Below, one piece after another: positions 37,842 to 51,119 of a DNA stretch of 64,000 nucleotides. The position numbers and the translations under genes were made by a program. Position 1 is the first letter of the stretch; each line of letters starts with the position of its first letter. A model generated the notes under the pieces. That model searched no databases. It worked only from the letters and a program-made list of their open reading frames with translations, and had not been told where the DNA came from. The DNA is from Anaerolineae bacterium (GTDB lineage: Bacteria > Chloroflexota > Anaerolineae > Aggregatilineales > UBA3940), in contig JAFGOY010000067.1 in assembly GCA_016926255.1 (NCBI GenBank), positions 62,001 to 126,000 of the forward strand, written 5' to 3'.

Positions 37842-38078
37842 ATGATCAATAAAAACAATCAGTTGATGCCAATCATTGGCCCGATTCTCAGGCTGCTGCA
37901 CAGCCGCAAGTTCATGGTTGTGTTGATGACACTTGTCGTCGATATCGTCATTGCCTATGTTCCAGCCTTCGAATCGGTTGAAGAGAGCCTGCTGGCTGTA
38001 TTCACTGTGATCGGTACTGCGCTGGTCGCATCCATCGCCTATGAGGATGCCGGACGAGCAAAGGAGACTGTTCAATGA
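37842..38078 (+). CDS. Small membrane protein, holin-like
   Basis: 78 residues from ATG 37842 with AAGGAG upstream. Two hydrophobic segments (FMVVLMTLVVDIVIAYVPAF, LLAVFTVIGTALVASIAY) with charged ends, the size and shape of a phage holin or a phage 'DUF' membrane protein. It overlaps the next gene by four bases (ATGA). Its position beside a fibre-like gene fits the lysis end of a tail module, but no lysin is next to it. Confidence 0.6.
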   Translation: MINKNNQLMPIIGPILRLLHSRKFMVVLMTLVVDIVIAYVPAFESVEESLLAVFTVIGTALVASIAYEDAGRAKETVQ

Positions 38079-38608
38079 CCTGGAGCGATCCTGAATCACG
38101 GGACATAGGAGACCTGATCACCGCTGCCATCTGGAACCAAGATGTGGTCGACAACGTTCAGTATCTTTTCGACAATCTGCCTGGTGGCAAGAGCTGCTGG
38201 GTGTACAACACTGCCGATATCTCCTGGCCAACCGGAACCGATACCACCATGACATTCAATTCCGAGTTGTGGGATACGGATGACATACACAGTACCATCT
38301 CAAACACCGACCGGCTGACTGCCCCTCAGGATGGCTTGTACCTGGTTGGGGCCTCGCTGTACTTCAATCAGCCAGACTGCTTCGACTTGAAAGTCTTCAA
38401 GAACGGCAGTACACAGCTTGGCGTCGGTGGGCGTGGTGATGCAGGATCAAGTTTCGGTGGCAGTGTAGTTACTATTGTGGACCTTGCCGAAGATGATTAC
38501 GTAGTTTTCAAAGGTTATCACACAGAGGGGACAACACGTCTGATGGTTGCGAGCGGCTATATCGGAATTGCGGCCTTCATGGTACTGATCGGAGCAAAAC
38601 CAACATGA
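38075..38608 (+). CDS. C1q-like phage fibre/receptor-binding candidate
   Basis: 177 residues. The N-terminus MTWSDPESRDIGDLITAAIWNQ, read in parts, is the short lead found on many phage tail-tip proteins. The body (TMTFNSELWDTDD, TDRLTAPQDGLYLVGASLYF, VVTIVDLAEDDYVVFKGYHT, GYIGIAAFMVL) follows the ten-strand C1q/TNF-like jelly roll used in trimeric fibre heads. It would bind a cell surface. It is coupled to both neighbours by four-base overlaps. Confidence 0.65.
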   Translation: MTWSDPESRDIGDLITAAIWNQDVVDNVQYLFDNLPGGKSCWVYNTADISWPTGTDTTMTFNSELWDTDDIHSTISNTDRLTAPQDGLYLVGASLYFNQPDCFDLKVFKNGSTQLGVGGRGDAGSSFGGSVVTIVDLAEDDYVVFKGYHTEGTTRLMVASGYIGIAAFMVLIGAKPT

Positions 38609-39039
38609 TTACTTTGACGTTTAACGGAGAACCGGGCAGCTTCAACCTGGAAGCCGCCACTGATCGCCTGATTGATCTCGGGATTGACCCGGCTAATCTA
38701 ACCATCATGTCGATACCAGATCGCTCTGAAGTAACTGTTCACATCCATGACGATCCAGATGGCAGTATTCAAACACTGGTCATCGCCGAGTTTTCCAACC
38801 ACGACCCGAGTCTGACGGAGGCGCAGTTAGCAGACGCAGCAAAGGAACTGACCGAAGCAAACGCCAAAGCGGATGCGGCCAGCATTCCCGGCTGGGCATC
38901 GTGGACCGAAGCCGAAGCCGTTGCCTGGGTCGATGGACATGTGACCAATCTCGAAGGTGCCAAACAGGCCCTTTCAGCACTGTCCAGACTCGTTGTCGCC
39001 CTTCGAAATAAAACCTGGCCCGGCTTGCAGGGCCAGTGA
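38605..39039 (+). CDS. Phage-like hypothetical protein
   Basis: 144 residues, start overlapping the stop of the fibre-like gene (ATGA). The first half is beta-like (ITLTFNGEPGSFNLEAATDR). A Ala/Glu-rich helix (LTEAQLADAAKELTEANAKA) and a Trp-rich segment (WASWTEAEAVAWVDGHV) follow. No family is recognised. Similar small proteins accompany phage fibres as chaperones or tips, which is only a positional suggestion. Confidence 0.55.
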   Translation: MITLTFNGEPGSFNLEAATDRLIDLGIDPANLTIMSIPDRSEVTVHIHDDPDGSIQTLVIAEFSNHDPSLTEAQLADAAKELTEANAKADAASIPGWASWTEAEAVAWVDGHVTNLEGAKQALSALSRLVVALRNKTWPGLQGQ

Positions 39040-39055
39040 AACACGGTGATATACC

Positions 39056-39442
39056 ATGGCAGGTGATGGACAGGACATGGTTGATGTAGGCAGTGACACC
39101 TTCAAGATCTTGCTGCAGCTCATCGACCAGGGGGCAGCAACCAAAGCCACGCTCGAGGGGATAGCCCGGGATGTCAGGGAACTGCGTGACAGCACCAATG
39201 CGCAGTTGGCCCGGCTCCAGGAGCGCGTTGGACAAGTGGAATCACTCAACGAACGTCAGGAAGCACGGATCGGAAACCTGGAGATCTGCGAGCAGAACCT
39301 TAGCGAGGATCATAAGGAGCAAACACAGGAAATCAACCAGTTGAAGGAGCGTATTGCCTACTTCGCCGGTGTGGCTGCCGTAGTGGGTGCCCTCTTTGGA
39401 GCAATCCTGGGTAAGGTAGTTCCAAAGATATTCGGAATGTGA
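39056..39442 (+). CDS. Coiled-coil protein with C-terminal membrane anchor (XhlA-like)
   Basis: 128 residues. A long heptad region (~25-100, RELRDSTNAQLARLQERVGQ and EDHKEQTQEINQLKERIA) is followed by one hydrophobic helix (FAGVAAVVGALFGAILGKVV). The layout is like that of phage XhlA/haemolysin proteins that help holins. It is last in a four-gene set (37842-39442) that ends in a terminator-like hairpin at 39565-39591. Confidence 0.55.
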   Translation: MAGDGQDMVDVGSDTFKILLQLIDQGAATKATLEGIARDVRELRDSTNAQLARLQERVGQVESLNERQEARIGNLEICEQNLSEDHKEQTQEINQLKERIAYFAGVAAVVGALFGAILGKVVPKIFGM

Positions 39443-40727: not shown

Positions 40728-41942
40728 GTGATGAAAATACTCTGGCATAGCAATGCCCCGTGGGTAGGAAGTGGATACGGCACACAGACGGAGACCTTTG
40801 TCCCCCGTTTGAAAAAGCTGGGACACGAGATGACGGTCAGCTGCATGTACGGTCTCCAGGGAAAACCTATCTTTGTTGATGGGGTGCAGGTGCTTCCTAC
40901 AGGGCGTGACCGGTATGGCAACGACATCCTGCCAGCGCATACAAAATACCTGAAAGCCGACATTGTCATCACGCTGCTGGATGCTTACGCCATCGAACCC
41001 TATGCAGCACGTCAGTTTCGCTGGGTGCCCTGGGTGCCGGTCGATACCGACCCGCTGGCCCCGGATATCGAGGAGGCGTTGAGCGCGGCTTACCAGCCGG
41101 TGGCCTTCAGCCGGTTTGGGATGCGGAAACTGGCCGAGGCCGGGTTCAAGCCGCTGTACGTTCCACACGGGCTCGACACCTCTGTTTTCCAGCCGCGTGG
41201 ACAGAAGATCGGGCGCGAGATGCTGAAGGTCGAAGAAGATATCTTCCTGGCCGGGATCGTCGCCGCCAACAAGGGGCGGCCAGGGCGTAAAGCCTTCGAC
41301 CAGCAGATTCGGGCCTTTGCACGGTTCCACGCCGGTCATCCTGACAGCCGTCTCTACCTGCATACCGACCTGACCGAATACGGCTGCCAGCACGGAGAGG
41401 ATATCGACCGGCTGATCGCGCTGGCCGGGCTGCCCGAAGAGGCGGTCATCCGGGTAGACCCTTATCGTTATGCAGTAGGTCATATCTCGCAGACCGAAAT
41501 GTCGCACCTGTATTCCGCGATGGACGTGCTGCTGGGGGCAGTGCGTGGCGGCGGGTTCGAACTCCCGCTGGTGGAAGCCCAATCCTGCGGCACGCCGGTG
41601 ATCACCACCGATTTCAGCGCGATGGCAGAACTGGTCTTCGCCGGGTGGAAGGTTGGGGCGGCGGATAGGTTCTTCTATCAGAACGCCTACCAGGTGATCC
41701 CCTCGGTGGACGATATTATCGCCGCACTGGAAGAAGCCTATCAGACGAAGCAGAAGGGGCAGTCGGCCTATCTGCAAGCCGATGCTCGGACGGGGGCACT
41801 GACCTACGATGCCGACCGCGTCGCCCGCGAGTACTGGCAGCCGGTGCTGGCGGAGATCGAGAATCGAGTGCGGAAAACCGCACATCGACTGGCTCCCCTG
41901 ACGATCCAGGCGCAGGGCCTCGACTTCGCGGAGGTGTCGTGA
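40728..41942 (+). CDS. GT4-type glycosyltransferase
   Basis: 404 residues. Two Rossmann-like halves of the GT-B fold: the N-terminus MKILWHSNAPWVGSGYGTQT has the Gly-rich loop, and GGGFELPLVEAQSCGTPVI in the second half is the E-x7-E donor-binding motif of GT4 enzymes. It transfers a nucleotide-activated sugar to an unknown acceptor. AGGAAGGAAGG precedes the ATG. The last ten residues (AQGLDFAEVS) and their DNA are identical to the end of the tape measure gene at 48831. The stop overlaps the start region of the next gene. Confidence 0.87.
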   Translation: MMKILWHSNAPWVGSGYGTQTETFVPRLKKLGHEMTVSCMYGLQGKPIFVDGVQVLPTGRDRYGNDILPAHTKYLKADIVITLLDAYAIEPYAARQFRWVPWVPVDTDPLAPDIEEALSAAYQPVAFSRFGMRKLAEAGFKPLYVPHGLDTSVFQPRGQKIGREMLKVEEDIFLAGIVAANKGRPGRKAFDQQIRAFARFHAGHPDSRLYLHTDLTEYGCQHGEDIDRLIALAGLPEEAVIRVDPYRYAVGHISQTEMSHLYSAMDVLLGAVRGGGFELPLVEAQSCGTPVITTDFSAMAELVFAGWKVGAADRFFYQNAYQVIPSVDDIIAALEEAYQTKQKGQSAYLQADARTGALTYDADRVAREYWQPVLAEIENRVRKTAHRLAPLTIQAQGLDFAEVS

Positions 41943-41948
41943 TGGCGG
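41909..41948 (+). repeat. 40-bp direct repeat, copy 1 (gene-junction cassette)
   Basis: 40 bases covering the last codons of one gene, a GGAGGTG ribosome site, stop, and the next ATG-GCG. It matches 48798-48837 with one difference (G41941 versus A48830). Confidence 0.9.
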
Positions 41949-44498: not shown

Positions 44499-44625
44499 TA
44501 ATGATGTGACGGTTTATTTGTTCTTCCATTTTCGCAGTGGCAGGGGAGGGAACTTTTATTGTTATCAGCCTGCTCTAAAGAAGCAGGGGGTGCGAAGGAA
44601 GAACGCAAGCAGAAAAGGAGCATTG

Positions 44626-45054
44626 ATGACCGCATATGGAATGGTAGGCAAGGTTCGCAGCGCAATCAAGGATGCGCTGAACGTGACAGCCGTTACCGAC
44701 CTGCTCTACAACCAGAGCGCCGACAGCATCGCCTGGCTGGATGCCAGCGCGGTGGGCGGCAAACCTTACATCCTGATCGAACTGGTCGGCGGAGGGGACG
44801 AAAACGCCTCCCCGACCCGGCAGCGCGAGGTGGTCTACACGGTCAAGGCCGTGGCCGATACCGCCGACGCCGCCGAACAGATCGACGCGCAGATCGACGC
44901 GCAGCTTCATGAAGGTACGCTGACCATCAGTGGATGGCAGACGGTCTCGATGGTGCGCGAGAATGATCTGGCTGACACCCAGGACGACGGTGGCGGGGGC
45001 ACCGAGTTCGTCATCGGGGGTCAGTACCGGATACGAATCGGTATGACGAGTTAA
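44626..45054 (+). CDS. Tail completion/terminator-like protein
   Basis: 142 residues from ATG 44626 with AAAAGGAG upstream; the longer open frame is not needed. MVGKVRSAIKDALNVTAVTD, KPYILIELVGGGDENASPTR and the strand pattern after it, including AQIDAQLHEGTLTISGWQTV, follow the DUF3168/gpU-like tail completion fold, which caps the head end of a siphophage tail. The gene directly precedes the tail tube gene, as in phages. Confidence 0.7.
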   Translation: MTAYGMVGKVRSAIKDALNVTAVTDLLYNQSADSIAWLDASAVGGKPYILIELVGGGDENASPTRQREVVYTVKAVADTADAAEQIDAQIDAQLHEGTLTISGWQTVSMVRENDLADTQDDGGGGTEFVIGGQYRIRIGMTS

Positions 45055-45087: not shown

Positions 45088-45492
45088 ATGGCAGGAATCA
45101 CAGGAAAGAACCTGTATGTCGCTTTCATGGGCGAGGCGCTGGAAGCCGACTACCGCGAGTTTTCCATCAGCGAAGAGGTGGGAATGGCCGATGCCAGCTC
45201 TGGCAGCGAAGCCGCGCGCACCTACCTCAAGACGCTCGAAGATGGCACCGCGACCCTGAGTCTGCTCCTTCAGGCTGATGGCACGGCTGTGACCGACCCG
45301 CCCCAGCTTCTGGAGAAGGGCGCGGAAGGGACGCTGGAATGGGGGCCGGAAGGCACCGCCGCCGGTAAGCCCCGCCGCTACGTCAACGCCATCGTGACGA
45401 CCTACGAAGAGCGGATGCCGTATGACGAAGTGGTCGAGATTACGGCCAGCTTCCAGTTCAGCGGCGAAGTGACCCGCACGACTTACGCTTAA
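45088..45492 (+). CDS. Major tail tube protein
   Basis: 134 residues with ACAAGGAGATG upstream. AGITGKNLYVAFMGEALEAD is the usual start of a tail tube subunit, and the rest is all-beta (SGSEAARTYLKTLEDGTATL; VVEITASFQFSGEVTR). Tube proteins stack in hexameric rings to form the tail. The small size fits a siphophage type. Position between completion protein and chaperone is canonical. Confidence 0.78.
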   Translation: MAGITGKNLYVAFMGEALEADYREFSISEEVGMADASSGSEAARTYLKTLEDGTATLSLLLQADGTAVTDPPQLLEKGAEGTLEWGPEGTAAGKPRRYVNAIVTTYEERMPYDEVVEITASFQFSGEVTRTTYA

Positions 45493-45560: not shown

Positions 45561-45845
45561 ATGATCGAGATCGACATCGAACGAAGTGACCAGGGTGCCC
45601 GCCGCAGGCTGGAACGCTTCGAAGGGGCCGCCGACGCCCTGGGAGACCTGCTGACCGACGAACTGGTGAAGGCCGCCCGGCGGCTGGCCCCGGTGAACCT
45701 CCGCTCCGGCATCAACCGGCGGCGGGTGGGGAAGCGCTGGCGGGTGTTTGCCCGTGACGACTCCGCCGAGACCTACATTGAGCAGGCGGTGGTGGATTTC
45801 GACTGGCGCGGCGCGCTGCGTCGGCTGCTCAACGATGTGAAATGA
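45561..45845 (+). CDS. HK97 gp10-like protein (head-tail or tail component)
   Basis: 94 residues with AAGGAG upstream. IEIDIERSDQGARRRLERFE, EGAADALGDLLTDELVKAAR, RRLAPVNLRSGINRRRVGKR follow the HK97gp10/neck family, which has LAPVDTGRLRxS; here the motif is LAPVNLRSG. In phages the gene comes before the tube gene; here it follows it, a rearranged order. A hairpin repeat lies immediately after the stop. Confidence 0.65.
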   Translation: MIEIDIERSDQGARRRLERFEGAADALGDLLTDELVKAARRLAPVNLRSGINRRRVGKRWRVFARDDSAETYIEQAVVDFDWRGALRRLLNDVK

Positions 45846-45932: not shown

Positions 45933-46223
45933 ATGACCGACGAAAAGAAGAAAGACCCCCGGCAGATCGTGCTGGAGGATGGACAGGAGTTGACCCTCGA
46001 CATGCGTAACATCACCTGGGTGGAAGCCAACGAGATGCTGCGCGTGCGGGCCGAGAAGGAAGGCGACATCGAGGCGGCGCAGCGGCGTTTTGCCGACCTG
46101 CTGGGGCGCTGCGTAAGCCTGAGCGCCGAAGAGGTGCTGGCGCTGAACCTGGTGGACTTTGCCAGGGTGAGCCGCCGGGTGGCCGAGTTCGTCCGTGACC
46201 CGCTGGGTGCGGACCCAAACTAA
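45933..46223 (+). CDS. Tail assembly chaperone, zero-frame product (gpG-like)
   Basis: 96 residues with AAAAGGAG upstream. The acidic helical protein (DGQELTLDMRNITWVEANEM, FADLLGRCVSLSAEEVLALN, FARVSRRVAEFVRDPLG) fits the first product of the two-frame chaperone system that loads the tape measure protein. It stops at TAA 46221 directly after the slippery site C CCA AAC (46214-46220). Confidence 0.8.
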   Translation: MTDEKKKDPRQIVLEDGQELTLDMRNITWVEANEMLRVRAEKEGDIEAAQRRFADLLGRCVSLSAEEVLALNLVDFARVSRRVAEFVRDPLGADPN

Positions 46224-46453
46224 GCCGGGCGATCTATCTCGCAACCAGATTCAATTCACCAGTTGACTCTTTCACCTGGAATGCGAGTTTGATGTGGGAA
46301 ATCGCCCAAGCAACAGGTTGGACGCTCGATTACATTCGCCACCTGAGTATTGAAGACCTGTGGGCGTTCTTAAGTATACGGGATGGATATGCAAAAGCCC
46401 ACAGATCTATCTCAGTGTCCAAAAAGCGAGGCAGAAGAAGGATCATTCGTTAA
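45933..46453 (+). CDS. Tail assembly chaperone, -1 frameshift product (gpGT-like)
   Basis: If ribosomes slip back one base on CCCAAAC (46214-46220), translation continues from CTA 46220 to TAA 46451, adding 77 residues for a 173-residue product. The extension (IYLATRFNSPV then WNASLMWEIAQATGWTLDYI, RHLSIEDLWAFLSI) has the Trp/helix pattern of the T domain of phage chaperones that binds tail tube protein. The frame is open, lacks its own good start upstream of the slip site, and ends just inside the lipoprotein gene of the other strand. Confidence 0.8.
46214..46220 (+). promoter_or_regulatory. Programmed -1 ribosomal frameshift site
   Basis: C CCA AAC in the zero frame is an exact X XXY YYZ slippery heptamer, followed at once by the zero-frame stop TAA. 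The GCCGGGCGA bases downstream may help stall the ribosome. This arrangement is the signature of phage tail chaperone genes. Confidence 0.82.
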
Positions 46454-46859
46454 GTTTTTCATATTCAGCATCGAAGATTTCGTGGCTTGCTTCCATCTCG
46501 GCAATAGCTACCTGGATTTCCGACTCGGATGCTTCTTGCAACTTTAATTCTGCTACCTGAATGCCCAATTCAAGCGTGGTAAGTAATGCTTCTTGAGCTG
46601 GTTTGGCGCATTCTGGAACCGACTTTGAGCTATGAGAGCTGTAAATACTCTCGATTTCATCCAAATGTTCTTGAATAACAACTGGATCATTAGTATCCAG
46701 AATTGCGCCAAGTCGAGCATCAAGTCCTGATATAGCGCCTAGCATATCGAGCCTTGCATGACGTGTCTGTTCAGGAGGACAAGAAAGGCACCCTGTAGTT
46801 AGGAAAACAATTCCTAAGATTATGATTAAGTGATATGAAGAAAACAAACTCTTTCTCAT
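46443..46859 (-). CDS. Lipoprotein within the tail operon (moron-like)
   Basis: 138 residues from ATG 46859 (second Met of the open frame). The signal (SLFSSYHLIIILGIVFLT) leads to a TGC lipobox. The mature part is helical and acidic (ARLDMLGAISGLDARLGAIL, ELGIQVAELKLQEASESEIQ). It is clearly more AT-rich than the tail genes and lies on the opposite strand between chaperone and tape measure, the favourite place of phage 'morons', some of which are surface exclusion lipoproteins. No specific family is recognised. Confidence 0.7.
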   Translation of the reverse strand: MRKSLFSSYHLIIILGIVFLTTGCLSCPPEQTRHARLDMLGAISGLDARLGAILDTNDPVVIQEHLDEIESIYSSHSSKSVPECAKPAQEALLTTLELGIQVAELKLQEASESEIQVAIAEMEASHEIFDAEYEKLNE

Positions 46860-46935
46860 GAGAATACACACTTTCACAGTTGATCTTAATTAACCCTATG
46901 TAGATTTTACATCAGTAAGGATTAGGAGGAAAAAT

Positions 46936-48831
46936 ATGTGCGATGGGATTGATATAGATGACATTATTCCTGGCCTCTTAGAGTTTTTTAGTAAAGGGCG
47001 CACAGACTTTGTTCTGTATGTGGATGCGTTAGAAAATTTAGCCAAGGACCACGACCCAAGGTCGACAGTAAATGAATTTCAATTCAGTTCTCGCGGAGGA
47101 CTCTCAGGCAGCGAAAGTGCCATATGGGCAAACAGGTTTTATGAAAGTGCCATTGCTTCTTCTGAAGAAGATTTAGTCAGGATAGCGGGTATAGCAAACA
47201 ATCTGCAACCGTTTGGCGAAGACTACTCCGCCACCATCGAGAATATTTACGAGGTTGTGTTATCTGAAGACGCATCTGCCGCTGCGGAGCTTGGTATATA
47301 TGATTTCCCATTCGAAAGCATTAACGAACAGACCCAATCGGATTTAGAAAGGTATCAACTCCGACTTGGGTACCTCGAACAGTTCGGGGTAGACCAGATG
47401 GGTGATCAACATGCAAACGCCATGACTATGCAAAATATTCTTCATACTGCATGGGATGAATTTCGGATGCAAAGTGCAATTTCGTTATCCGAGGATCCTG
47501 TGAAGTCCGCGACTATGTTAAGCAACCCACTAACAGGATCAATATGGTCAGTTAATGCAATGTTTGATTTCCTTGAGCACCGGACTGGAAGACCGAATCC
47601 AATCGAGGCGTTGGAAGAATTGAGACCAACACGTAACAAAATATTGGGTATTGATGATCTGTTAAGTACAGTAAAAAGCGACCTCTTCCAAGGACTTGAA
47701 AACTGGGGGTTTACTCCCGCCAAATTTATTACTTCTTTGGATGAATATGATGCTTTGACAGGTAATGACACCTCAATATTGTACGATCAAGTAGGTAGCT
47801 TTCTACACGATCAAGTAATTGGTCTCTTTGGACAGGATGTCGAACAAGGAACTGATAGCGAGGGCATTCTCGATCTACCGTTCGAGGTCAATTTGGACGC
47901 GATCCTGGAGCAGTTGGGCGGTCTCTCTGACGGAATTCTGGGCGAAGGCGGCTTTAAACTTCCCATTGACATCGACACCAGTCTGTTTGATGAGGAGGGT
48001 GGACCGCTTGCCGGGCTGTTCGGTGGGCTGTTTGGCACCGGCGAGGAGGAGGGTGAAGGCGGGCTGCAAATCCCCATCAGCTTCGACCAGGCATCGGTAG
48101 AAGAGGGCGTTACTATACTCAGCGAGATGTTCAGCGGTTTGTTCAGTACCGGCGAAGGCGAAGGCGAGGAGGGCGGCAGCGGCCTGCAAATCCCGATTGA
48201 TTTCGATCTGGAAGCGGCGATGGAAGCCTTCGCCCCAATCCAGGAGATGATCTATCAACTGACGGGCGCGGGCGAAGACGAGGAGGGACTGCTCAACGTG
48301 ATCCAGTTTGCCGTCGACCCCGAAGGGATGGCCCTGGCCGCCCTCGACAACCTGCTGCTCAACCTCCTGAACATCGTCGGCGGCGAAGGGGAAGATCAGA
48401 CCCCCTGGATTCTCAACCTGGTGGCCGGAGAAGGGCTGGAGGCGGTACAGGGCAAGGTCGAGGGGATACTCTCCAACCTGCAAAGCATCGCCTCGAAACC
48501 ATGGACCGCGACCATTTCGATCATTCAGAGTGTGTTGGGGGGCGGAGATGGCGATAACCGGCAGTACGGCGGGCCGGTCGGCATGACCGGTGCGTACCTG
48601 GTCGGCGAGACCGGGCCGGAACTGGTCACCCTGCCGCAGGGAGCCTACGTCACACCTTCGGTTCGCACCGGGGTGCTGCTGGGCGGAGCGAGCGGCGAGA
48701 GCGCCGGTGGATCGGTGAACCACAACAACCTCTACATCTCGGTCGACGGCGTCAGCGACGCGCGGAGCTTCGTCCGCGAACTGCGCTACGAACTGCGGGC
48801 GCAGGGCCTCGACTTCGCGGAGGTGTCGTAA
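46936..48831 (+). CDS. Short, chimeric tape measure-like protein
   Basis: 631 residues with AGGAGGA upstream. The C-terminal part has the tape measure end signature QYGGPVGMTGAYLVGETGPE then LVTLPQGAYVTPS (around residues 540-580), preceded by hydrophobic helices and two repeat units with GLQIPI and acidic Gly/Glu-rich loops. The first ~310 residues (to about 47870) are AT-rich, lack such repeats and look unrelated to known tape measures. At about 0.15 nm per residue the tail would be near 95 nm. The end (AQGLDFAEVS) forms the second 40-bp repeat. Confidence 0.72.
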   Translation: MCDGIDIDDIIPGLLEFFSKGRTDFVLYVDALENLAKDHDPRSTVNEFQFSSRGGLSGSESAIWANRFYESAIASSEEDLVRIAGIANNLQPFGEDYSATIENIYEVVLSEDASAAAELGIYDFPFESINEQTQSDLERYQLRLGYLEQFGVDQMGDQHANAMTMQNILHTAWDEFRMQSAISLSEDPVKSATMLSNPLTGSIWSVNAMFDFLEHRTGRPNPIEALEELRPTRNKILGIDDLLSTVKSDLFQGLENWGFTPAKFITSLDEYDALTGNDTSILYDQVGSFLHDQVIGLFGQDVEQGTDSEGILDLPFEVNLDAILEQLGGLSDGILGEGGFKLPIDIDTSLFDEEGGPLAGLFGGLFGTGEEEGEGGLQIPISFDQASVEEGVTILSEMFSGLFSTGEGEGEEGGSGLQIPIDFDLEAAMEAFAPIQEMIYQLTGAGEDEEGLLNVIQFAVDPEGMALAALDNLLLNLLNIVGGEGEDQTPWILNLVAGEGLEAVQGKVEGILSNLQSIASKPWTATISIIQSVLGGGDGDNRQYGGPVGMTGAYLVGETGPELVTLPQGAYVTPSVRTGVLLGGASGESAGGSVNHNNLYISVDGVSDARSFVRELRYELRAQGLDFAEVS

Positions 48832-48837
48832 TGGCGG
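48798..48837 (+). repeat. 40-bp direct repeat, copy 2
   Basis: The same 40 bases as 41909-41948 except A48830. It again joins the end of one gene, a GGAGGTG ribosome site and the ATG-GCG of the next. Confidence 0.9.
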
Positions 48838-51119
48838 TTCAGGCAGACTATTTGGTTGATATCGATCTCAACGGCGATCGTGACTTCTCCGACGCCAATG
48901 AAGATGTATCGGCCTACTGGAAACGCATGGAATGGAGCCTGGGCGTCGATCAACCCTATGACGCGATGGCCCGCGCGGCAACACTGGAGATGACACTCAT
49001 CAATGAGGATGGCCGGTTCTCGCCGGAGCATGCCAGCGGCCTGAGCGGCTTTGCCCCCGGCGCACTGGTGCGCGTCCGGTCGTTGCAGCCCACCGATGTC
49101 GATGGGACATACAGCGGCGTGACGCTGGGGCAGACCGGTATCGGCGATGGGAACACCTGCGCCCGTTTTCCGGGCGGCAGCAATATCGGGTATGCGAATA
49201 TCCCTGCGCCTGCGCTCGACATACCCTTCGACCCGGATGCGGGGACGATCAGCGTGTGGTGTACCGCCGATGCCGGGTCGATTGCCGATGGATCATGGCG
49301 GCAGGTCATCCGGCTTACGGGGAGCGGTTCTAATAACTACATCTGCATTTATGCCGATGCGGTTGTCGACCGGATTCAACTGGCATACTATGCCGGTGGC
49401 ACCTGGAAATCGGTAGCGCTCAACACCCCCGACACCGGAGACTCTGCATGGTATCACTTTGTGTTGACCTGGGATACCGCCGCAGACGAAATGAAGGGCT
49501 ATGCCAATGCTGTTCAGCTTGACTCAACTCGAACAGGACTCGGCACCTGGGTCGGGCCGCTGGCTACAAATAAATGCTGTATTGGGACTGCACAGGCCGG
49601 GACCATCTGGTCTACGTGGTCGGGGAAGATCGCTCACTGTGCAATCTGGGACAAAGCTTTGACTGCCGATCAGGTCGGCCAACTATATCGGGCAAATACC
49701 CGGCAAGAGGATGTCGTTCTCGACACCGAGCGCGACGACCTGATCGGCTATTGGATGCTCGACGAGGCCAACGGATCGACCGCGGCCAGCAGCACGGGTA
49801 AGACCAATCACTTTATCGGTTGGATCGACAAAGATGGTATCCGGCCCGCGCCCGGCACACGAGGCAAACGCGAGACGGTGGTCAAAGCGTCGGGTTGGAT
49901 GAGCCGCCTTCAGGATGATGAGGTCTTCCTCGAAGTGCAGGAAGGCAAACGCACCGACGAGGTCATCCAGGCGTTGATGAGCGCCTCGGCGATCTATCCA
50001 CCCGGCTCGATGGGCTGGTTCCTGGACATTCCAGGGTTCATGTCGCTCGGCCAGACCACGACGCTGGCTGCCGGGTTCGAAGATTTCACCGATATGGGTG
50101 AGGGCGCGACCGTTCTCAACTATGCAGGTGACAACTGGGAGGAGGGCGTCAGCGTCTACCGGGCGGTCAGTGACGTGGTCGAGGCGGAAGGCGAAGGGGC
50201 GCTGCTCTACATCGACCGGGCGGGGCAGCTTGTCTTCCGGGGCCGCCACTGGCCACACCAGGACATGCCAGAGTCGGTCGACGCAACACTCACCCAGGAC
50301 GACATCAGGGAGGATGGATTCCGGTACGCCTATGGTGACCGTATTGTCAACGACGTGACGATCTCACTGCGCCCGCGCGAGGTGGGCGATACCATCGAGA
50401 CGCTGGGGACGCTCACGAACCCGGTAAAAATCGAGCCGGGCGAAAGTCGCACCGTGCGTATTCGCTACGACGATGGCTCCGACAACCGAATCGGCGGTAA
50501 GGAAGTATCGATGGGAAGCTGGTCGGCCAAGTCGGAGAGCGATGGTGGCTCCGACCTGACGGGCTATATCGCTGTGGAGCTTGAAGAAGGCGCAACCGGT
50601 GCTGAGATCACCTTTGCCAACAGTGGCTCGAAGGTGGCCTATATCCAGGCTGGCGCGGCGGTACAGGGATACAAGATCACCGACTTCGGCGGGCAGGAGG
50701 CCACGTTGGCGGATGAAGACAGCATCGTCGCCTATGGTCGCCAGAAGATGCAAATGCGTATAAGTCTGCTCGACGACCTGGACGTGGCCGAAGCGCTGGC
50801 CCAGGGGTTGATCTTCCTGCGCAAGGAACCGCAGGGCCAGATCGAGGCGGTGACGCTGGTCGCCAACAGGAGCGACACGCTCATGACGCAGGCCCTGGGC
50901 CTGACCATCGGCGACCGGATCGAGATCAGCGAAGGGCAGACCGGCTCGGATGGCGAGTACTTCATCGTCGGCGAGCAGCACCAGGTGTCGAGTCAATATG
51001 AGCACCTGGTGACATGGACGCTGCGCCCGGCCCCGGCGCGGGTCTTCTGGCTGCTGGGGAAGACCGGCTTCAGCGAAGTGGATACGGAAGCACTCTCGAC
51101 CACATTGCTGGGCTTTTAA
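48831..51119 (+). CDS. Tail hub/tip protein with embedded LamG-like domain
   Basis: 762 residues. The first 80 (QADYLVDIDLNGDRDFSDAN, ARAATLEMTLINEDGRFSPE) look like a distal-tail/hub N-terminus. Residues ~95-290 are a LamG/concanavalin-like jelly roll (DPDAGTISVWCTADAGSIAD, AWYHFVLTWDTAADEMKGYA, GKIAHCAIWDKALTADQVGQ). The remainder (residue 330 on) resumes hub-like features and ends in a phage baseplate-like region (VAEALAQGLIFLRKEPQGQI, LGLTIGDRIEISEGQTGSDG). It would sit at the tail tip and bind glycans. A strong terminator follows. Confidence 0.72.
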   Translation: MAVQADYLVDIDLNGDRDFSDANEDVSAYWKRMEWSLGVDQPYDAMARAATLEMTLINEDGRFSPEHASGLSGFAPGALVRVRSLQPTDVDGTYSGVTLGQTGIGDGNTCARFPGGSNIGYANIPAPALDIPFDPDAGTISVWCTADAGSIADGSWRQVIRLTGSGSNNYICIYADAVVDRIQLAYYAGGTWKSVALNTPDTGDSAWYHFVLTWDTAADEMKGYANAVQLDSTRTGLGTWVGPLATNKCCIGTAQAGTIWSTWSGKIAHCAIWDKALTADQVGQLYRANTRQEDVVLDTERDDLIGYWMLDEANGSTAASSTGKTNHFIGWIDKDGIRPAPGTRGKRETVVKASGWMSRLQDDEVFLEVQEGKRTDEVIQALMSASAIYPPGSMGWFLDIPGFMSLGQTTTLAAGFEDFTDMGEGATVLNYAGDNWEEGVSVYRAVSDVVEAEGEGALLYIDRAGQLVFRGRHWPHQDMPESVDATLTQDDIREDGFRYAYGDRIVNDVTISLRPREVGDTIETLGTLTNPVKIEPGESRTVRIRYDDGSDNRIGGKEVSMGSWSAKSESDGGSDLTGYIAVELEEGATGAEITFANSGSKVAYIQAGAAVQGYKITDFGGQEATLADEDSIVAYGRQKMQMRISLLDDLDVAEALAQGLIFLRKEPQGQIEAVTLVANRSDTLMTQALGLTIGDRIEISEGQTGSDGEYFIVGEQHQVSSQYEHLVTWTLRPAPARVFWLLGKTGFSEVDTEALSTTLLGF

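Follow-up and report, generated by a model that had tools for sequence, protein, structure and literature searches.

Organization of the tail gene cluster

The DNA analyzed here, referred to as the window, is a 64,000-nucleotide stretch from an Anaerolineae bacterium, and coordinates are positions within it unless a related locus is named. Related loci are designated by L followed by a number; L031, L032 and L034 come from uncultured phages (IMG/VR), L019 is a 7.4-kb contig of an Anaerolineae metagenome-assembled genome (MAG), and L030 belongs to a Rhodospirillales MAG. The window contains a cluster of tail genes on the plus strand, comprising the following features:

44506..45054, plus strand: tail terminator (PHROG 123, E = 9.6e-6; relatives in > 30 loci)
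45088..45492, plus strand: major tail protein (PHROG major tail protein, E = 3.9e-10)
45561..45845, plus strand: small protein with no family match of note
45933..46223, plus strand: G part of the predicted tail assembly chaperone, 96 aa, zero frame (Phage_TAC_7, BLAST relatives, AlphaFold2)
46214..46220, plus strand: slippery heptamer C CCA AAC, zero frame, abutting the stop codon TAA
46214..46453, plus strand: putative T extension, -1 frame, stop included (profile, tblastn, helical model)
46936..48831, plus strand: tape measure protein (PHROG tape measure, E = 1e-4, residues 509-614)
48831..51119, plus strand: tail tip-like protein with a LamG insert (Pfam Laminin_G_3, E = 6.5e-16)

Counterparts of the major tail protein in the nearest viral and genome loci share 48-70% identity with it, and the tail tip-like protein shows 32% identity over 735 columns to a tail gene product of L034. 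Matches of the tape measure protein to phages by tblastn were confined to C-terminal residues 527-627, the first ∼310 codons of its gene being AT-rich and unmatched. The product of 45561..45845 was tentatively assigned by eye as a short HK97 gp10/Neck1-like protein; the L031 protein to which it was likened, again by eye, matches PHROG 5 with E = 8.8e-16. This candidate gene precedes the chaperone in the window and follows it in L030, L031 and L032.

Upstream of the tail genes lie three glycosyltransferase-like genes and a sigma-like gene, and related phages likewise carry relatives of the glycosyltransferases ahead of their tail genes. Two further genes of the window, one at 38075 and a holin-like one at 39056 (together 38075-39442), are located upstream of the glycosyltransferases; their relatives lie downstream of the tail gene in L034, L030 and L019. 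An antisense ORF of 138 aa with a lipoprotein-type signal (TTGC) occupies the minus strand between chaperone and tape measure (46443-46859); it has no family match of note and is possibly a moron gene. Base composition changes sharply within the cluster, with an AT-rich patch (46224-47865) beginning right after G. GC3 is 0.84 in G, drops to 0.51 in T and to 0.40 over the first 310 codons of the tape measure gene, and is 0.77 thereafter. The patch sets the window cluster apart from L019, L031, L032 and L034.

A slippery heptamer abuts the stop codon of G

The ORF at 45933-46223 ends with GAC CCA AAC TAA (stop codon at 46221-46223), which places the heptamer C CCA AAC in frame directly before the stop, exactly where the first-pass annotation had noticed it. 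CCCAAAC, which has C in the X position, is the sole in-frame X XXY YYZ heptamer of the 96-codon G ORF. In the -1 frame, no stop occurs between 46199 and 46450; the first lies at 46451-46453, and the overlap with G amounts to only 22 nt. The frame is thus open as initially described, but its length, given then as 77 codons, is 76 codons beyond the zero-frame stop or 79 from the heptamer. Because a -1 frame stays open in 1.4% of mononucleotide shuffles of the region, this openness is weak evidence by itself, and the case rests on homology and conservation. The ORF list contains no ORF of at least 60 aa with a usual start codon in this frame; start-to-stop gene calling would therefore miss or truncate T, in agreement with the initial suggestion that the extension had escaped ordinary annotation.

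The G protein matches Pfam Phage_TAC_7 (PF10109) at 25.1 bits, barely reaching the curated cut-off of 25, and this match is weak or absent in the closest relatives of the window G. BLAST relatives of G occupy the same place in L030, L031, L032 and L034. The AlphaFold2 model of G has a pLDDT of 84, and a Foldseek comparison of this model with the PDB returned nothing with E < 0.75; likewise, profiles of G and T gave no meaningful match to PDB sequences. Folding of the first 80 nt after the junction, limited to simple folds without pseudoknots, yielded no significant stimulatory RNA structure 3' of the window heptamer (z = -0.57), with values of -3.63 for L019 and -3.00 for L030. No strong pause element was found.

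Conservation of the T frame and heptamer

When used as a query, G retrieved no close relatives from viral contigs or 150 related genomes, and the major tail protein was therefore used instead, yielding 30 loci from viruses and two from genomes in addition to the same-order loci. Most of those with enough sequence contain a G-like ORF followed by a -1 extension of 58-89 codons past its stop. A profile constructed from eight T sequences, from which the window was left out, recovered the window segment with E = 4.9e-22, whereas the runner-up among 1190 six-frame segments reached 0.43. By tblastn, the window T is 37-51% identical in six close relatives, L031 being the best match (49%, 3e-19), followed by L032, L034, L033 and L019, with L030 at 2.5e-11. 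Homologous T frames were found in the same -1 relation in > 20 independent loci; no match to T was obtained among 50,697 deposited phages.

A canonical in-frame heptamer is present within the last 8 codons of G in 17 of 26 distinct loci with the same layout and absent from the other 9, a set that includes the eight seed loci, which match by construction, and several with weak T matches (L037, L041, L046, L047 and L048; E 0.02-0.13). In 2000 trials with codon-shuffled G genes, the corresponding count had a mean of 0.6 and a maximum of 5. CCCAAAC itself lies at the same place in the window, L019, L031, L032 and L034, and other canonical heptamers occur elsewhere. Both the -1 frame and a slippery heptamer are thus conserved in homologous clusters, contrary to the outcome named at the start as grounds for rejection. 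This conservation argues that the tail chaperone is subject to programmed -1 frameshifting, as had been proposed from the window alone, and on this comparative evidence the window -1 frame is judged to be coding sequence.

The pattern of substitution had been put forward at the outset as a check. Differences in the -1 frame at codon positions 1, 2 and 3 number 28, 27 and 42 relative to L031 and 34, 27 and 53 relative to L032 and are thus concentrated at the third position, and the T tip branch of the window measures 0.55, compared with 0.33-0.98 for its phage relatives. Neither measure gave any sign of decay or acceleration. As the differences fall mostly at third positions and the branch is no longer than those of the relatives, past purifying selection on T in the phage lineage is supported by these sequence comparisons.

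Junction variants

CCCAAAC itself marks the opening of the -1 frame in L019 and L032, a stop being located just upstream, and in L030 the frame begins at CCCTTCC, again with a stop directly before. Because of these stops, slippage in the three loci would be possible only at the heptamer. The conserved LS.A block of T starts immediately at the -1 opening in each of them. The junction of L030 (7206-7212) and L033 (10694-10700) reads CCCTTCC TGA, which is non-canonical and differs from that of the window, whereas the T family and its -1 position are the same. The frame overlap in L030 is 7 nt, leaving no alternative slip site. CCCTTCC has the form XXXYYZZ, which PMC10885494 appears to name “threetwotwo” (matched here by motif form). 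The G genes of L043, L050 and L053 end in GGGGGAA TAG, corresponding, also by motif form, to the “fivetwo” motif of the same study.

The T protein and its likeness to known systems

The T alignment contains an invariant glycine followed by a near-invariant tryptophan, and T is predicted to fold as four helices with a mean pLDDT of 91; the model is therefore consistent with the tryptophan-containing helical extension that had been anticipated. The family has no match in Pfam and only one in PHROGs, with E of about 0.01, probably since gene callers do not join the two frames. The viral protein structurally closest to the T model was a 74-aa protein of Bacillus phage Finn (probability 1.00, TM about 0.6, E only 0.086), taken from its length to be gp22. 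Finn gp22 is encoded between gp21 and the tape measure gene, in the -1 frame of gp21, the stop of which is preceded by A AAA AAG, and it matched the T profile weakly (E = 3.3e-4, 38% probability). The Finn pair therefore shares with the window a short -1-frame protein before the tape measure and a heptamer at the junction but differs in that it is annotated as two genes and that its G part is not recognizably related to the window G.

Frameshifting in tail assembly chaperones is conserved and has been reviewed, and the mechanism has been described for phage lambda (PMC5009743). The window shares with lambda the order major tail protein, G, T in the -1 frame and tape measure (PMC5009743). In both, G carries an in-frame X XXY YYZ heptamer close to its end, and T is short. 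The lambda heptamer, G GGA AAG, lies 15 nt before the stop, whereas CCCAAAC stands directly against it, and the window T comprises 76 aa compared with 144 in lambda. Profile comparison revealed no detectable sequence similarity of the window G and T to lambda gpG and gpT, hhalign giving a probability of 0.4% for T against gpT, which places T outside the gpT sequence family. The original comparison with the gpGT T domain accordingly holds for position, frame relation and slippery signal but not for sequence: judged from these alignments, the window T is gpGT-like in arrangement and mechanism and not a sequence homologue of gpT. The closest counterparts are L019, L031, L032 and L034, which have the same CCCAAAC, frame relation and T family. 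Head genes are present in L031, L032 and L034 and absent from the window cluster; the L019 contig spans only 7.4 kb.

Proposed mechanism

The layout, the heptamer, the conservation of the -1 frame and the helical prediction are established for the window. We consider it highly probable (∼0.94) that 45933-46223 and 46214-46453 are two parts of a single tail assembly chaperone gene, of the gpG/gpGT kind and with a -1 frameshift. Points that weigh against this assignment are the C in the X position, the failure to find a strong pause element or significant RNA structure in the window, the 9 of 26 loci without a canonical heptamer in the last 8 codons, and the lack of sequence similarity to lambda gpG or gpT. 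Slippage, its rate and the protein contacts are inferred and can be described by the following minimal model. The majority of ribosomes would terminate at the TAA at 46221 to produce G. A minority would move one base back on C CCA AAC, so that the zero-frame Pro-Asn becomes Pro-Lys, and would then read CTA AGC CGG and onward to yield G-T with a predicted helical C-terminal T part of 76 residues. By analogy with lambda (PMC5009743), G would coat the tape measure protein and T would recruit the major tail protein.

That T is instead a separate gene with its own start, the heptamer being incidental, has some precedent in Finn, where the protein at the T position is annotated separately, and many T frames contain internal ATG, GTG or TTG codons. 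Such a gene is nevertheless very hard to reconcile with L019, L030 and L032, in which the heptamer coincides exactly with the start of the open -1 frame and the LS.A block follows at once, with the lack of a start codon yielding at least 60 aa in the window frame, and with the strong over-representation of heptamers at the junction. Still more remote is a -1 frame open by chance, as happens in 1.4% of shuffles of the same composition, or a single fused gene broken by a sequencing error, conceivable in an assembly of 82 contigs. The same -1 relation recurs in > 20 independent loci, and a sequencing error would not strike one and the same codon repeatedly; both variants were ruled out by the homologous T frames and the leave-one-out profile match.

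State of the island

The tail cluster sits in a rearranged island of ∼15 kb. A transposase adjoins the tail gene, and a 40-nt direct repeat, 98% identical, is present at 41909-41948 and 48798-48837. The repeat places a copy of the last part of the tape measure gene, together with the beginning of the following gene, at the 3' end of the glycosyltransferase ORF at 40728-41942. The final residues encoded by this ORF, AQGLDFAEVS, are those of the tape measure protein, and the repeat has the appearance of a recombination scar. Searches of the genome for relatives of the L032 terminase, portal and capsid found none. Capsids related to that of L032 occur in L031 and L034 (54-65% identity) and in L059, L020 and L037 (31-41%), but the L032 terminase and portal have fewer matches among the loci, and a head gene that has diverged could therefore have escaped detection. 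Of the island genes, three were searched for in other genomes of the same family: the chaperone, the major tail protein and the glycosyltransferase were found in 0 of 8.

These observations bear on a reading that is compatible with the frameshift assignment, namely that the sequence was selected in a phage and the island is now inert, with the frameshift idle today. The lack of matches to the L032 head genes, the upstream placement of genes that trail the tail in relatives, the transposase, the scar-like repeat and the absence of the three searched genes from the eight same-family genomes all favor it, whereas all tail-module reading frames examined are intact and the T tip branch falls within the range of the relatives. 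On balance we lean slightly towards this reading, a remnant being no less likely than a functional apparatus in the present host. The constraint on T may have acted entirely in phages, prior to the loss of head genes from the island. The original view that the tail genes are, or were until recently, under selection is only partly supported: T shows no sign of decay or acceleration, but the constraint may be older than that view implied, and the three genes searched are missing from all eight other same-family genomes. It is improbable that the cluster is a retained head-free siphovirus-type tail (tailocin-like) of the Anaerolineae bacterium that still needs the chaperone frameshift; on this reading, T and the N-terminal part of the tape measure protein would have been acquired together in a single AT-rich cassette, joined upstream at the slippery site.

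The window frameshift is of the textbook gpG/gpGT type and familiar in kind. Its analysis brought out a T family without a match of note in Pfam or PHROGs, and CCCTTCC, a second and non-canonical junction found in two relatives, in one with a 7-nt overlap, provides a clean test case for slippery-site rules. Taken together, the data indicate that tail-chaperone -1 frameshifting extends to Anaerolineae-linked phages and their uncultured relatives.
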